The translations under genes and the position numbers were made by a program. DNA of 64,000 bases, from NCBI RefSeq assembly GCF_025602895.1, contig NW_026516251.1, forward strand, positions 62,001 through 126,000, read 5' to 3'. The notes beneath the pieces were generated by a model, which made no database searches, had not been told where the DNA came from, and saw only the letters and a program-made list of their open reading frames with translations. Positions 10,672 through 16,322 of this stretch are shown piece by piece. The first letter of the stretch is position 1; each line of letters starts with the position of its first letter. Source of the stretch: Polychytrium aggregatum (lineage: Eukaryota > Chytridiomycota > Chytridiomycetes > Polychytriales).

Positions 10672-11420
10672 TAGAGCTGCGCGAACGAAAGGAGATGACG
10701 CTGCACAGGCTTCTCTATTGTTCTATGTTCGCGGTGTATCGCTCGTATTGCTGCCATGTCCTTGTTGCGAGGAATCGTTGGTGCATGCACTAAAGACTGC
10801 CCATCGTTTCCTCTCCCACGCTCGTACTAGATCCGCGGTCTGTCATCCAGTTTTGGTATCAAGCGTGGCACGGCCTTCAATTCGATCGAGTTCTATCTGC
10901 AAGTCGTCAGCAACCTGGCCGAGAACGAATGCTGACACCGAGCTGAGCTCAATCTCCATCCGTCAACATCCGAGACTGCTGCCGCGAGTTTGGCTGCTGT
11001 CTCGGGTCGCCAATGCTGCCCAGATCGCCTGCTCCTACTTGTGTCTTTTCGGGCCCGCTCTCTCCCGCCCCCCCCCATCCGCAAATCGAATATTTTGGAA
11101 CCCTCCCGCCTCGGTTCTCGCCCCCCCCCACCACTCCTTCCCCCACTTTGCTACTATAATTTATACATTTTGGAGTGCCTCTCTCTGCTGGATTTGATCG
11201 GAGCCGTGAGCAGTTATCCCTTGTCCCTCCGTCCTGTGATCTCCAGATTCCGCCCTTGACCCTTCCCGCCCTCCCTTATCCCCTCCGATCCCCAGCGTCC
11301 ATGTCTACTTCTATATGGCTGCCCAAGGCTCCCTCGGCATCCCCTCTCTACCCAGCGGCTCGCCCACTCCCACTTCCACTTCCACTTCCACACCCTCGCC
11401 GCGTTAAGTTACAGCCAATC
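10672..11420. other. Intergenic: lipase 3' flank
   Basis: No gene recognised. The stretch is pyrimidine-rich in places (C-runs near 11070 and 11130) and ends in CT-rich DNA next to the MITE. Open frames here lack recognisable domains. Confidence 0.4.
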
Positions 11421-11560
11421 CAATAAAAAGCAGGTTTTGGTCATTGAACAAATGTGTTGTTGCCTCAACACATCGCGCTGGCCATGACCATTCAGTGATA
11501 CGTTTCTGGAACTGAATCAAGGACGCTTTCTCCCAAGCGACTGTCCCGTTTCTCTCTGGA
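11421..11560 (+). mobile_element. MITE related to the Fanzor transposon, about 140 bp
   Basis: The left 80 bp align with the left end of the transposon at 12182: both start CAATAAAAA and both end GCTGGCCATGACCATTC, which in the full element contains the transposase start codon. The MITE lacks the GGGACACC part of the left end. Its right end, CTGTCCCGTTTCTCTCTGGATC, matches the transposon right end TTGTCCCGTTTTTTTCTGAA. The interior is deleted, so this is a non-autonomous derivative keeping both ends, 0.6 kb upstream of the full element and in the same orientation. Exact termini and target duplication are unresolved. Confidence 0.75.
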
Positions 11561-12181
11561 TCGAATGTATTTGATGCCTTTCACCACCATCACCACCACC
11601 ATCACCACTACCACCACGAACGAATCATACGATCTGTCGTAAACTTAGAGGTGACCCCGTCTTCCTCTCCTTGGCCCTTCCCTCCTCCCACATCTTCTCC
11701 ATACCACGCTGGAAAAAAACAACATTCCTTCAATATTGCTTGTCAAAGTATTGTGGCAGACCTGTGAAGTGGGAGGGTCGATGCATATGGCAGAGTATGT
11801 GACAGTGCAGGGAGCAGTCTTGGCTTGAAGAACAGGCCGAGCAGGGAAACGCCTCTGCATCCTATTTCATGGCCCGGCTCCTCCAGGTCCATCTTGACCT
11901 TCATGGTGCAGATCATCACACCACCAGCAGAGTCTGACTGATCCTCTCCCCCAACTCACCAGCATCCAGGGACCACCTCCATTCTCACTCGATCTCCACC
12001 AGACCTCTGTCGACTCACCTGCACAACCAACACGGACTCTGTCCAACTCCAACAACCATGTAGTACATCTACCGAGATATCCCGCTGCTGCTGGAAGGCG
12101 CATGGCCCGTGCTTCAGACCGTTCCTCCCCGCCAAGTATGCCAGTAATCTTGCTGGTGTCAGGCCCTCATTAAGAGCGATC
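11561..12181. other. Spacer between MITE and transposon
   Basis: Contains a CAC/CAT-rich microsatellite (about 11583-11620) and CCA-rich DNA. No supported gene; the short frames on the minus strand lack homology signals I can recognise. Confidence 0.4.
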
Positions 12182-12199
12182 CAATAAAAAACGGGACAC
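12182..12199 (+). repeat. Left terminal inverted repeat of Fanzor transposon
   Basis: CAATAAAAAACGGGACAC; it pairs with the reverse complement of 15883-15903 over the core AAAAACGGGACA. The next bases (CCAGGTTTTTGACC) recur inverted in short relics elsewhere in the window. Confidence 0.7.
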
Positions 12200-12256
12200 C
12201 CAGGTTTTTGACCATTCATCGAATATTTTGTTACCCAAAACCATCGCGCGCTGGCC

Positions 12257-13189
12257 ATGACCATTCGCCACACATCCGACTTTCGCACCGCCGCATTGCG
12301 ATGCTACGCCCTCATCCATAGCCTGCGTAAGGTCGCCTCCATATTCAGTGTATCCAAGAGCACCATCCATCGATGGCACCGAGGATGCAAGCTGGATGAC
12401 CCATCCCGGGTCCCAGCTCGCAGATCCACTTTCTTCGAGCAGGCATGTCCAGTCATTCGCACCCTGATTGAACAGGACCCGTTCCAGACTGGTCCTGTGT
12501 TGCGATGCAAGCTCGAGTCCATCCTCCAGAGGAAAGTATCACTCTCACTCTGCCACACTGCCATCCACCGAGCAGGTCTCTCACACAAGAGGGCAACACA
12601 CCTCTACAAGTCCAAGCGACTGGATGAGCGAGTGGCACAGTTCAGGGACCAGGTCCGCTCCATCGACCCGCGGCGATTCGTTTTTGTCGATGAGACGGGG
12701 ATCAGGAAATCCATTTTCCCTCTCTACGGATACTCACCGAAGGGTGCTCCGCTTCGCCAGCGCAATCACATGAAACACAAGTCTGTCTCGGCTGCATTTG
12801 CCATCAACCACTCTGGTGTGCTGCATCGCATGTACATCCCCACATCATTCAAGACACACTCGATGGTCGAGTTCTTTGATCGAGCGACCTTCCCAGACGA
12901 CTCTGTGATTGTGATGGACAATGTCAGCATGCACAAGACAAGGGCTGTCCTGGACTGCATCGAGCGCCGAGGATGGTCAGTGATCTTCACCCCACCTGCC
13001 TCGCCCGACTTCAATCCCATCGAGAACTTCTTTGGGATTGTGAAGCATCAGTACAGGAAGGTGGCAGCGCTGAATGCGTCCGAGGGGTTCAAGATCGGGA
13101 TGGTGACCCTGTTTGAGTCTGCCGTTCGGAGGGTGCTTCCAGATGTCTTCCCACGGCTGATTGAGCGAGCGATGCGCTTCTGGGGTTGA
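12257..13189 (+). CDS. IS630/Tc1-mariner superfamily DDE transposase
   Basis: A 310-aa intact transposase, predicted to cut and paste its element by recognising the terminal inverted repeats. The N-terminal helix-turn-helix lies around residues 20-50 (SLRKVASIFSVSKSTIHRWH). The catalytic core has FVFVDETGIRKS (first Asp), VIVMDNVSMHKT (second Asp) and SPDFNPIENFFG (Glu). The second Asp and the Glu are separated by 34 residues (DD34E) and the first two Asp by 75. The start codon sits in the segment GCTGGCCATGACCATTC, which the MITE also keeps. No frameshift is seen, so activity is plausible. Its partner gene is the Fanzor 250 bp downstream. Confidence 0.93.
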   Translation: MTIRHTSDFRTAALRCYALIHSLRKVASIFSVSKSTIHRWHRGCKLDDPSRVPARRSTFFEQACPVIRTLIEQDPFQTGPVLRCKLESILQRKVSLSLCHTAIHRAGLSHKRATHLYKSKRLDERVAQFRDQVRSIDPRRFVFVDETGIRKSIFPLYGYSPKGAPLRQRNHMKHKSVSAAFAINHSGVLHRMYIPTSFKTHSMVEFFDRATFPDDSVIVMDNVSMHKTRAVLDCIERRGWSVIFTPPASPDFNPIENFFGIVKHQYRKVAALNASEGFKIGMVTLFESAVRRVLPDVFPRLIERAMRFWG

Positions 13190-13439
13190 GTTCCCTCCAA
13201 TCAAGCCGCCGTTTTCGCGTTCACATCCCTGGCTTGAACCTCTCGGCGATTTTTGAACAGGGTCACTTCCCAACCAGCCCGCAAAGACGGGCTCCTGCTC
13301 TCGGGTATAAATGTCCCACCTTCGTCCTGCTGCTTTCTTCCCTCATCTCGCCTTGATCTGATCATCGCGCTATTGTACGATAAAAAAAAGTCTCTGCTCT
13401 GACCAGTACCACTGGCAGGCATCCAGCATCCTCTGCCCC
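13190..13439 (+). promoter_or_regulatory. Fanzor promoter region inside the transposon (TATAAAT at 13306)
   Basis: A 250-bp gap between transposase stop and Fanzor start. It contains GGGTATAAATG (TATA-like, about 130 bp before the ATG) and a short GCCCG/CGGGC hairpin (13277-13292). An own promoter for the Fanzor is inferred from this. Confidence 0.5.
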
Positions 13440-15812
13440 ATGCCTCCGAAGCGCAAGGGTGCCGGTGATGGCCAGCCTCGGCCACCCAGGCCCAAGAAAG
13501 CCAAGTCACAGTCGGAGCCTGTCTCTGGTTCGTATTCTGATCCCACGCATGCTTGGTCGTCTGTTGCTCCGTCGCTCACCACCACTGCTTCTGCAGATCC
13601 AATGGATGTCGATCCCACCGAGCCTGGTCCATCTACTTCCTCGAGTACTGGCAAGCGATGTCGCCAGTGCGATGGCACCGATCACGAACGTTGCAACACC
13701 AGCAAATGTCCCAAATACTGGCCCCTCAAGAGCTCCGTCGTCCCACTCGTGGATGGAAGGTCATCCGCCCCTCAGTTCGGCTGCTTCAAGCAGACGATGG
13801 ATAGCTGTTGTCTCAATCCCGCTCTCCGCGACAAGATCCAGGCCACCGTCGAGGCCATGACCCAGATCCAGTTCGAGGCATCCAGGCTGCTCAACCTGCA
13901 CATCCTCCGGTGCATCGAGCAGGATCTTCCCGTCCCCGTCATCTCCAAGTCCACCCCTGCTTTCGTTCGCCAATGCTTCAAGATCGTCCAGGACGGTGCC
14001 CTCTCCCCGACCGGGGACAATGAGAAATACAACGAGCATCTGGTCGCTTCCTTTCGCGACTACCAGACCACTCGGCACGCAGACCTGCCTCCGGCCCCTC
14101 GTCTGCCTGATGGTGCTCACAGTCAGCTTCTCACTCTCGCTGTCAACGCCTATGCTACCAACTGCACCACCCACCTCGATCTGGCCTACTGGCGACTCCT
14201 TCGCCGCTTCTGCGCTGCCGTCTTCCCAGCCAACAAGCATAAGCACGAAGCCATCGAGGCCTGTCTCGAGCTCTTCGAGAAACCAGGGCAGACTCCACCC
14301 AAGGCCGATCTCGAGTTCCTCTATCCAGACTTTGGCCACGTCCTGGACGAGTTTCGGTACAGCAACGACCAGGACCGCTTCCGGGCCCTCCATCGCCTCT
14401 CACACCATGTGAGAATCCTCGCCCGAGACAAGATGGTCGACAATGTCCACAAGTGGATCGACTGTGACATGCCCGCCCTCCGAGTCACCGAGCTGCAGCG
14501 CCAGGCCAAGCTGGACGAGCTCACTACCCAAGGCATTCCCTCCGACGACAAGAGGTTCACCAACGCCAAGTCTGAGCTCGGCACCACCAAGTCCAAGATC
14601 AACAAGCTGGCATCCAGGATCAACTGGGCACTCAAGCAGCTCGCCGTCGACACTCCTCCGGCCGTGTGCACGATGGTTCCTCTATGCACTGCAAGGGCCA
14701 AGTATGTCAAGATTGACACGGTCACTCTCTGGCAACTCCTTGACACCGAACATCGTCTTAGACTCCCTCGGGACAAGCTCAAGGATGAAGGTGATGACGG
14801 TATCAACAACCAGGATCGTCTCTGGCGCAGTTGCTTCAAGCTGCGTAGTTCCCTCTTCCAAGAACGGGACGTGGACAAGAAGCTGTTCAACTACGAGATC
14901 AGCACCGATGGCATTGGATGCACCATCGGCCTCGTCAAGTTTGTGCGTCGAACCGATCACACCGAGACCATCGAGCCTCCTCCGACTGCCGAGCAGCGCA
15001 TCCAGACCCACATCGGTGACCCAGACCCCAACCGCACCACTTGGATTGGCATCGATCCTGGAGTCGGCTCCATCTTCACGGCGGTCATCCAAGCACCGGG
15101 CCACCAAGACGAGGTGGTCTCATTCTCCAATGGCCACTACCAGCAAATGTGTGGCCATACGTCCGACACCAAGTGGCACAATATCATGAAGTATCGACTC
15201 AGCATCGAGACCTGGATGTCGACCACCCCCTCGCCCAAGGTGTCGTCCTCGGAGGCTTTCAAGGTCCATCTCACCCATGTCCTGCGACCGGAGCTGCGAG
15301 TGCAGCTCGATTTCCACCTTGGCAAGAAGGCCCGTCACCATCGATTCACAGGCCACAAGAGGCGCCAAGTGGCCGTCGACAGGATGTGCAAGGCCGTCCT
15401 GAAGCACGCCCCGATACGGACCGATGTGGTGATCGCCTTTGGCAATGCATCATGGCGACAGGGCAAGGGCTATGCATCCAGCCCTCGGAGGCAGCGGTTT
15501 GCTCGGTACTTTGAGCAGTTCGAGCACCACCGACGCCGTCCCAATCACCATCATGGAAGCGTCAAGGTGGCCTCGACGAACGAGTTCAACACCTCACAGG
15601 TGTGCACCAAGTGCCTGGAGCCAGTTCGGTTGGAAGGACTCGATGCGCCCAGTGTTGCGAATTCCCACTTTGTCAGGAGCTGCAAGAATCCCAGCTGCCG
15701 GACAGTGTGGAATCGCGACGTCAATGCGGCGCGCAACATGATCACAGTATGCAGGTCGATTGTGGAGATCGGAGAGCGACCGGCGGTCTTCACTCGGAGG
15801 CTGCCAAAGTGA
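13440..15812 (+). CDS. Fanzor1-type RNA-guided endonuclease (TnpB relative)
   Basis: An intronless 790-aa protein, homologous to bacterial TnpB and predicted to cut DNA guided by an RNA made from its own 3' region. The N-terminus is basic (PKRKGAG, RPKKAK), a likely nuclear signal, followed by a Cys/His cluster CRQCDGTDHERCNTSKC (about residues 74-90). The middle is helical. RuvC-I is WIGIDPGVGS with Asp539. RuvC-II, VIAFGNASW, has Gly668 where TnpB has Glu. Glu715 in STNEFNTSQVC, 47 residues on, fits the rearranged glutamate described for Fanzors. The zinc site is C722-x2-C725 and C748-x4-C753. RuvC-III is WNRDVNAARN with Asp760. All expected residues are present. The length is in the range of Fanzor1 proteins. 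It shares the element with the transposase at 12257. Function is inferred from family knowledge. Confidence 0.93.
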   Translation: MPPKRKGAGDGQPRPPRPKKAKSQSEPVSGSYSDPTHAWSSVAPSLTTTASADPMDVDPTEPGPSTSSSTGKRCRQCDGTDHERCNTSKCPKYWPLKSSVVPLVDGRSSAPQFGCFKQTMDSCCLNPALRDKIQATVEAMTQIQFEASRLLNLHILRCIEQDLPVPVISKSTPAFVRQCFKIVQDGALSPTGDNEKYNEHLVASFRDYQTTRHADLPPAPRLPDGAHSQLLTLAVNAYATNCTTHLDLAYWRLLRRFCAAVFPANKHKHEAIEACLELFEKPGQTPPKADLEFLYPDFGHVLDEFRYSNDQDRFRALHRLSHHVRILARDKMVDNVHKWIDCDMPALRVTELQRQAKLDELTTQGIPSDDKRFTNAKSELGTTKSKINKLASRINWALKQLAVDTPPAVCTMVPLCTARAKYVKIDTVTLWQLLDTEHRLRLPRDKLKDEGDDGINNQDRLWRSCFKLRSSLFQERDVDKKLFNYEISTDGIGCTIGLVKFVRRTDHTETIEPPPTAEQRIQTHIGDPDPNRTTWIGIDPGVGSIFTAVIQAPGHQDEVVSFSNGHYQQMCGHTSDTKWHNIMKYRLSIETWMSTTPSPKVSSSEAFKVHLTHVLRPELRVQLDFHLGKKARHHRFTGHKRRQVAVDRMCKAVLKHAPIRTDVVIAFGNASWRQGKGYASSPRRQRFARYFEQFEHHRRRPNHHHGSVKVASTNEFNTSQVCTKCLEPVRLEGLDAPSVANSHFVRSCKNPSCRTVWNRDVNAARNMITVCRSIVEIGERPAVFTRRLPK

Positions 15813-15904
15813 TCTGTTTTATTTCTTGTGGCTTTGCTTGACGCAAGCACAGCACATACTACATGTTCATGGAAACGGCTATATTGTCCCGTTTTTTTCT
15901 GAAT
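15813..15904 (+). ncRNA. Candidate 3' part of Fanzor guide RNA (fRNA/omegaRNA), with hairpin 15828-15855
   Basis: The 90 nt between the Fanzor stop and the element's right end contain a strong hairpin: TGCTTG (15835-15840), loop ACG, CAAGCA (15844-15849), extended by GTG-GCT against AGC-AC. In known Fanzor systems the guide RNA scaffold comes from this region and the guide lies beyond the right end. The assignment is an inference; the hairpin is directly visible. RNA boundaries are unknown. Confidence 0.5.
15883..15903 (-). repeat. Right terminal inverted repeat of Fanzor transposon
   Basis: TTGTCCCGTTTTTTTCTGAA on the plus strand; its reverse complement matches the left end core AAAAACGGGACA and the MITE right end. 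Confidence 0.7.
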
Positions 15905-16161
15905 AAAGTGTAAGAGCACCCTCAGTGCCAAAGCCTGTGGCGAGCAAAGCCGAATACTTTCCAACAGAGCAGTTCGGTAGCATCCAAGTGAAGGCCGTGA
16001 GTCGCTCTCTGGTCGCCACAGTCACCGTGGATACGAAGGTCATGGTACTCTTGAGTAGATCAAAGATACGACTTTGCCCAGGCCGTGGATGACGGTAGCG
16101 TCGCAGTGCAGCGATGCAGATATCGAGAGCGCTGTGCTTGTTCACGAATGTAAGGAGTGGG

Positions 16162-16288
16162 TGTGAGTATTCAGATGCGACAAGTGTGTATTCAGATGCC
16201 ACAAGTGTGTATTCAGATGCCACAAGTGTGTATTCAGATGCGACAAGTGTGTATTCAGATGCGACAAGTGTGAGTTCAGATGCCACAA
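16162..16288 (+). repeat. 21-bp tandem repeat, six copies
   Basis: Units of the form GTGTGTATTCAGATGCSACAA. The period is seven codons (SVYSDAT) and the frame is open into the downstream membrane-protein gene. The unit resembles the outer part of the short transposon-end relics in this window (TGTATTCAG), so it may have expanded from one. Confidence 0.85.
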
Positions 16289-16322
16289 AAGCACCGGCCC
16301 TGGCTCAAACCAGGGTGTCCCG
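16270..16322 (-). mobile_element. Degenerate transposon-end relic (copy C)
   Basis: Contains CAAACCAGGGTGTCCCG, 15 of 17 bases identical to the reverse complement of the Fanzor element's left end (12190-12206), preceded by a TTCAGATGCCACAAAA block resembling the right end. Same layout as the relics at 23184 and 25326. Confidence 0.5.

Follow-up and report, generated by a model that had tools for sequence, protein, structure and literature searches.

Within a 64,000-nucleotide stretch of DNA from the chytrid fungus Polychytrium aggregatum (NCBI RefSeq assembly GCF_025602895.1, contig NW_026516251.1, positions 62,001 to 126,000 of the forward strand; hereafter the window) lies a mobile element that is interpreted from its sequence, with high confidence, as an autonomous IS630/Tc1-mariner transposon carrying a gene for a Fanzor nuclease. 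The window is part of contig C363 in a genome of 64,678,306 bases and 418 contigs. The features of the element are as follows, where SpuFz1 is the Fanzor of Spizellomyces punctatus and L031 denotes the window copy among the loci that were compared.

12173..15910, + strand: whole element, 3738 bp (length from L031), its limits set where the sequence common to the copies stops
12171..12172, no strand: left TA of the target site, forming with T12170 the TTA that is the predicted target-adjacent motif
12173..12198, + strand: left terminal repeat, with the core AAAAACGGGACA at 12187-12198
12173..12177, + strand: AGAGC replacing the usual CAGGC or CGGGC; the same five bases as in the right flank at 15913-15917, present also in the same-site copy on contig C68 (L001/L034)
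12257..13189, + strand: IS630/Tc1-type DD34E transposase, 310 amino acids (aa), from Pfam DDE_3, NCBIfam NF033545 and catalytic residues
13440..15812, + strand: Fanzor nuclease, 790 aa, from Pfam PF07282, alignment to protein P0037 and conserved residues
15813..15912, + strand: predicted guide-RNA scaffold (right end plus TA), from low diversity, a weak fold and analogy with SpuFz1; its 5′ limit may lie inside the Fanzor gene
15885..15910, - strand: right terminal repeat, with the core AAAAACGGGACA on the minus strand at 15885-15896
15911..15912, no strand: right TA, presumed target duplication (TA in 28 of 28 distinct right flanks)
15913..15927, + strand: predicted guide of the window copy, about 15 bases of right flank, inferred from the 14-15 nt guide extensions of SpuFz1

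The two genes lie on the same strand and are uninterrupted by stops, as the sequence-only reading of this DNA had claimed, and all of the catalytic residues that it ascribed to the two proteins are present. The transposase matched Pfam DDE_3 at 1e-23 and the NCBIfam IS630 model NF033545 with 123.6 bits (above the cut-off of 100), its catalytic residues are D145, D221 and E256, and 34 residues separate D221 from E256 (DD34E). Searches of a protein database returned 34 relatives at 27-41% identity, and searches of the PDB by sequence gave weak matches only, including Sleeping Beauty and Mos1. The C terminus of the downstream protein belongs to the TnpB family (PF07282, 3.9e-8, 33.8 bits, above the cut-off of 26.3), with D539 (in D539-P540-G541 at RuvC-I), E715 and D760 completing the catalytic triad. 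The glutamate is of the alternative kind before the first CxxC, i.e., E715 is followed by six residues and then C722xxC725, and the zinc ribbon (C722/C725/C748/C753, then RD) has a second cysteine pair, CxxxxC, that is wider than CxxC. The available part of one survey (PMC10711439) gives as the fingerprint of Fanzors a DPG at the first RuvC aspartate together with a glutamate that precedes the zinc ribbon by six residues. As for the class, excerpts of the literature place in Fanzor1 those proteins that are carried by eukaryotic non-IS607 transposons and have enlarged recognition domains; the IS630-type carrier and the 790 aa fit Fanzor1, by carrier and length alone, and some Fanzor2s, according to the same excerpts, are also found on non-IS607 elements.

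Relatives of the nuclease were few. Among 8000 scored candidates in the protein database there was no close relative of the whole Fanzor, and residues 440-790 gave three relatives among 1450 candidates. Two of these are fragments within annotated Polychytrium aggregatum genes (66% and 52% identity over 31% and 38% of residues 440-790), and the third, P0037, a metagenome protein of 486 aa with 30% identity, aligns with the same residues, E715 included. Annotation assigns the Fanzor fragments P0035 and P0036, both from Polychytrium aggregatum, to the beginning of a “male sterility protein-domain-containing” protein and to the end of an F-box-type protein (PF00646). Sequence matches to the PDB fell nearly all in the C-terminal part, the best being the TnpB-like protein L79 at 7e-6. 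A viral source was also considered and was set aside, as scans of viral_contigs with the Fanzor queries and the transposase query gave no relative of either protein.

The element belongs to a large family. The genome holds at least 129 matches to the transposase (537 first-look candidates, 128 scored), at least 57 to the Fanzor that cover residues 1-790 or 2-790 (1272 candidates, 57 scored; no internal stop in 51 of the 57 listed), and at least 40 matches each to the DNA of the left end (540 candidates) and of the right end (447 candidates). For comparison, 60 loci (L001-L060) were extracted, 30 chosen by transposase score and 30 by Fanzor score, which represent 56 copies since four copies are included twice. 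Reduced to distinct sites, these gave 24 transposase-chosen copies (L001, L016, L017, L018, L021 and L025 dropped) and 28 Fanzor-chosen copies (L034 and L049 dropped). Each set, being selected by the score of one gene, is biased toward conservation of that gene, and the two sets are therefore not fairly comparable with each other. With this bias in mind, D145, D221 and E256 are all kept in 24 of 24 transposase-chosen copies, and the catalytic and zinc residues of the Fanzor in 28 of 28 Fanzor-chosen copies, except for C753 (27 of 28) and E715, where 27 copies have E and one has K. The transposase frame is open in all 30 transposase-chosen loci, 27 of these 30 loci (21 of 24 distinct sites) have an open first part of the Fanzor frame, which spans about 414 codons (in L025, 367), and the Fanzor is without a stop in 28 of the 30 Fanzor-chosen loci.

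The idea that the two genes are accidental neighbours, i.e., a transposase element that happens to lie beside a separate Fanzor element, was ruled out by the common ends and fixed gene order in the examined loci, which leave it a negligible probability. The left end is found in 57 of the 60 loci, and the other three have it with a shortened A run; the right end is found in all 30 Fanzor-chosen loci, the transposase-chosen loci being too short to reach it. The Fanzor starts about 1.2 kb past the start of the transposase in 30 of 30 transposase-chosen loci, and a transposase gene is at least partly present upstream in 30 of 30 Fanzor-chosen loci, so that the shared ends and the association of the two genes proposed for the window copy hold across the family. 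Movement of the element is likely to have been recent, judging from the sequences of two copies, L010 and L011, which lie inverted about 7.6 kb apart on contig C8 and share 2397 identical bases before 10 differences within 70 bases; one of the two is therefore probably a recent copy.

Comparison of the copies also served to fix the ends. The core AAAAACGGGACA has exact matches at both ends of the element, and with one mismatch allowed there are three matches in the window, where 0.22 are expected. The sequence-only reading had placed this core in matching inverted ends and the element at 12182..15904; the core does stand on both sides, but it lies 14 bases inside the true ends, since the sequence common to the copies extends 14 bases beyond it on each side and stops at TA, and the limits were corrected accordingly to 12173-15910, with TA at 12171-12172 and 15911-15912. 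In its usual form, the left end reads TA and then CAGGC(A/G)ATCCAATAAAAAACGGGACA, and the right end TGTCCCGTTTTTTTCTGAATAAAGTG and then TA. In the window copy the two 26-base ends agree at only 17 of 26 positions, which makes the inverted repeat an imperfect one beyond the core. TA stands on both sides of the copies listed, with the exception of L050, which has TG on the left; the inverted ends and flanking TA of IS630/Tc1/mariner elements are thus present. A related type of end, CAGCGTA(C/T)CC followed by ACGGGACA, adjoins or lies on copies at the right flank of L039 and the left end of L038, which suggests, from the sequence of these ends, a sister family of transposons. Just to the right of the element, a short tandem repeat of about 21 bases was seen by eye at about 16165-16290 of the window.

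Both frames look to be under constraint, subject to the selection biases given above. For the first 414 codons of the Fanzor in the 24 transposase-chosen copies, variants shared by at least two copies comprise 50 nonsynonymous (N) and 66 synonymous (S) changes, an N/S of 0.25 of the neutral expectation, with 0 stops where 9.8 are expected, and singleton variants give 0.42 of neutral with one stop. The transposase, by which these 24 copies were selected, has an N/S of 0.18 of neutral for shared variants and 0.47 for singletons. Several deletions in the transposase region are seen at more than one site (element positions 103-351, 657-782, and 869 to 1008-1033), and in 16 Fanzor-chosen copies with large deletions of this kind the N/S of shared Fanzor variants is 0.29 (N 70, S 87), in a sample biased to conserved Fanzors; as these copies were picked by Fanzor score, the retention of the gene in them is not claimed as proof of action in cis. 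Taken together, one pair of ends in many copies, constrained frames and the 2397 identical bases support the reading of a transposon with its own transposase and Fanzor.

What the Fanzor might recognize is suggested by the left flank. In 44 of 45 distinct left flanks the TA has a T in front of it, the exception being L022 (G), and A or T stands ahead of that T in 35 of the 45. These 45 were found by script among 57 left flanks, with L019 and L037, probably one site, counted as two and with L011 read one base off register, although it too has TTA. By comparison, T precedes 14.8% of TA in the window, and the position following the right TA is little constrained (A 8, G 9, C 10, T 1 in 28 distinct of 30 right flanks), so that the left T (44/45) and the right A (8/28) differ with a Fisher p = 1.3e-10. 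A fixed motif outside the left end, as in OMEGA systems, is thus present. In SpuFz1, according to the excerpt available (PMC10432273), CA, the pair of bases conserved on the outer side of the left end, belongs to the experimentally tested motif CATA, and since those outer bases plus TA make up its motif, and since the left T here is nearly constant while the base that follows the right TA varies almost freely, TTA is predicted by analogy to be the target-adjacent motif of this Fanzor. The motif of GtFz1 of Guillardia theta is given, in the portion of its description at hand, as TTAA.

The right end is the predicted source of the guide RNA, mainly by precedent. In the part of the SpuFz1 paper that was available (PMC10432273), an RNA of 88-90 nt arises from the same place and includes 14-15 nt of flank, and the scaffold of Fanzor1 guide RNAs, in excerpts of the literature, is reported to include the terminal inverted repeat and the target-site duplication (TSD) and to extend about 15 nt past the TSD. 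In the element studied here, no other non-coding part varies as little as the 98 bases that follow the Fanzor stop, whose mean pairwise difference is 0.018, compared with 0.034 in the left end, 0.050 in the stretch separating the genes and 0.073 for four-fold sites of the Fanzor. Within the gene, four-fold sites in the last 90 codons give 0.0345, the lowest bin, and those in the bin of codons 300-399 give 0.0437. The best 40 of the 447 right-end candidates are identical over 93 bases, which is partly explained by their being listed best first. An Rfam scan gave one chance match, far below the gathering score.

Combining these observations, the element is fairly probably an autonomous cut-and-paste transposon with its own Fanzor1, which would restore sites of excision by RNA-guided cutting; the retention-by-cutting role itself, which is drawn by analogy, is held with moderate confidence. 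The transposase would move the element into a TA, and an RNA from the right end would read through the TA into the flank, so that each copy would carry a guide to its own insertion site. The Fanzor with this RNA would recognize TTA plus the flanking sequence only where the element is missing, i.e., at a closed donor site or on the sister or homologous chromosome, and a resident copy would be safe because its left TTA adjoins element sequence rather than the target. Cutting of the element-free site, followed by repair that copies the element back, would then offset the loss by excision.

Two patterns in the sequences could be traces of homing or gene conversion, or could originate from the transposase or the assembly. 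The former of these concerns odd left ends. Among the 28 distinct copies with both flanks known, three carry at the left end the five bases of their own right flank (L031 AGAGC, L032 GTGGC and L040 CCGGC), and in the remaining copies the left end and the right flank match at three of five bases or fewer; three full matches occurred by chance in 42 of 200000 shuffles of the right flanks. All three finish in GC, like the usual end, as do 5 of the 25 other right flanks in a hand count (p = 0.017). L029 has GTGGC, as in L032, at another site, and a fourth odd left end is that of L011, with CTTATCCCGC before AATCC. The left flank of L011 encodes pieces of a cytochrome P450 (PF00067; the first at 4.8e-10, the second at 0.00019 and 20.8 bits, below the cut-off of 22.8), whose frame continues as LIP into ATCCCG, so that the odd bases look like target; the element appears from this sequence to interrupt a cytochrome P450 gene, and the right flank of L011 is predicted to start with TATCCCGC. 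A target duplication of variable length (7 bp) was considered as the origin of the odd ends and is less likely, because the replacement keeps the register in the three five-base cases (L011 has six). That they are homing scars, left by Fanzor cuts at unoccupied sites, is a doubtful proposal: the nuclease would cut inside the stretch that matches the guide, the cut end would keep a few bases, and these would pair with the left end of the element through a match of 2-3 bases and prime its copying. Both this repair and a one-ended joining by the transposase with a template jump fit the observed ends.

The other pattern concerns ten pairs of copies that share flanks. Eight of these pairs (L031/L034, L048/L049, L056/L018, L013/L017, L010/L053, L008/L050, L009/L016 and L019/L037) differ by 2-4% inside, whereas their aligned left flanks differ by 0-0.9%; the two alike pairs are L020/L021 (1 difference in 2503) and L024/L025 (none in 2364). 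The differences counted inside the eight differing pairs are 75/3738, 98/3708, 58/2503, 80/2505, 71/2376, 101/2495, 60/2503 and 80/2259. The left-flank figures cover the aligned part only (486 of 1416 bases for L013/L017 and 963 for L009/L016), and in the 1416-base left flank of L001/L002 (the same pair as L034/L031) 73 bases are gapped and 2 are mismatched. Right flanks were compared for two of the eight, L031/L034 (97.9% alike, with a 21-base tandem-repeat shift) and L048/L049 (99.9%). The differences are unevenly placed: L031/L034, L009/L016 and L010/L053 are alike at the left and beyond that as different as random copies; L008/L050, L013/L017 and, save for one segment, L019/L037 are as unlike as random copies throughout; and L048/L049 and L056/L018 are intermediate. 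Four transposase copies stand at matching spacing on contigs C112 and C407 (offsets 805475 to 805571), which therefore look like two haplotypes. Neither the window nor the loci contain any Ns. Frequent exchange between copies, or an assembly that mixed repeat reads, would explain the pattern of the same-site pairs.

Several observations weigh against the retention of the element by its own Fanzor. The predicted RNA of the right end folds only slightly better than shuffles (z -1.98, 7 of 200 shuffles folding as well), and a longer stretch gave z -1.45 with 15 of 200 shuffles as good; the AlphaFold2 single-sequence model of the Fanzor was unusable, with a predicted local distance difference test (pLDDT) score of 40.6. 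Stops interrupt the first part of the Fanzor in L003, L022 and L026, i.e., in 3 of the 30 transposase-chosen loci. Of the 28 distinct Fanzor-chosen copies, only 5 encode the complete transposase of 310 aa; another 5 have an altered form that retains all motifs, and in 18 it is disabled, lacking a catalytic block or the DNA-binding part, and most such copies therefore rely on others for movement. Selecting each set by one gene's score skews the constraint estimated for the gene in question. Finally, a related miniature inverted-repeat transposable element (MITE) of 156 bp at 11412-11567 of the window, with TTACAGCCAATCC and the first bases of the transposase gene at the left and TGTCCCGTTTCTCTCTGGATCGAATG, then TA, at the right, is without a Fanzor and also has the left TTA (one case), which could come from the transposase or from a Fanzor acting in trans.

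The MITE speaks at the same time for a different and rather unlikely explanation, according to which the transposase alone accounts for insertion, with a preference for T before the TA at its left end, and the Fanzor is carried along or has some other function. The odd left ends would then arise when the right end joins the target TA and the target strand is extended and jumps to the left end at a match of 2-3 bases, and the GC in which they all finish favours this view. It is opposed by the Fanzor frames, which are mostly open and constrained in copies chosen regardless of the Fanzor, so that the nuclease must have some use, not necessarily the restoration of sites. Such a use might be action on other copies or on the host (e.g., cutting rival elements or allelic sites and thereby driving gene conversion among copies) in place of restoring excision sites, which is considered very improbable; the eight same-site pairs look as if their interiors had often been exchanged, which speaks for it, although an assembly error could produce the same picture.

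Elements of this kind are already known, as Fanzor1 together with a mariner transposase has been described since 2013, and the sequence-only reading was right that Fanzor1 proteins on mariner-type elements are known from surveys (Bao and Jurka 2013, PMC3627910; the comparisons here draw on portions of the publications cited). Their PGv-1 and PUl-1 resemble the present element in being of the Tc1/mariner type, with TA duplications (presumed here), a transposase and a Fanzor1 (a probable one here); PGv-1 is set apart, by its description, as a single copy with a third gene, whereas the present element carries two genes and occurs in many copies. Spu-1, the carrier of SpuFz1, likewise has conserved bases outside its left end and is, as the present element probably is, a Fanzor1 element with a TA duplication, and its right-end RNA tract of 80 bases is similar in size to the one predicted here (98); it differs in that no transposase was found, according to the excerpt, and in its outer bases (CA versus T here) (PMC10432273), and SpuFz1 has 633 aa versus 790 (PMC3627910). 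GtFz1 is likened by description and not by sequence: TTAA, its tested motif, resembles the TTA predicted for this Fanzor, and its third catalytic residue is N where D is found here. The logic proposed by analogy for this Fanzor, a nuclease that cuts element-free sites, is that of the TnpB gene drive of an IS200/IS605 element, which was tested experimentally in bacterial plasmids (PMC11870625). What this case adds is a family in high copy number whose two genes are intact, together with corrected ends, predictions for motif and guide, and two unexplained sequence patterns. No earlier report of an intact pair in high copy number was found in titles and the beginnings of abstracts, which covered the literature in part, and priority is not claimed.

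The biological role of Fanzors was called unknown in the excerpt of the 2023 SpuFz1 paper (PMC10432273). If the odd left ends were indeed homing scars, the genome would record RNA-guided homing by a eukaryotic Fanzor in a form readable from sequence alone, and the element's left end would change over evolution by taking up target bases. With its high copy number, both enzymes intact, and a predicted TTA and a guide for each copy, the family makes the role of the Fanzor directly testable, and the element is a good natural system in which to ask what RNA-guided cutters do for the elements that carry them.

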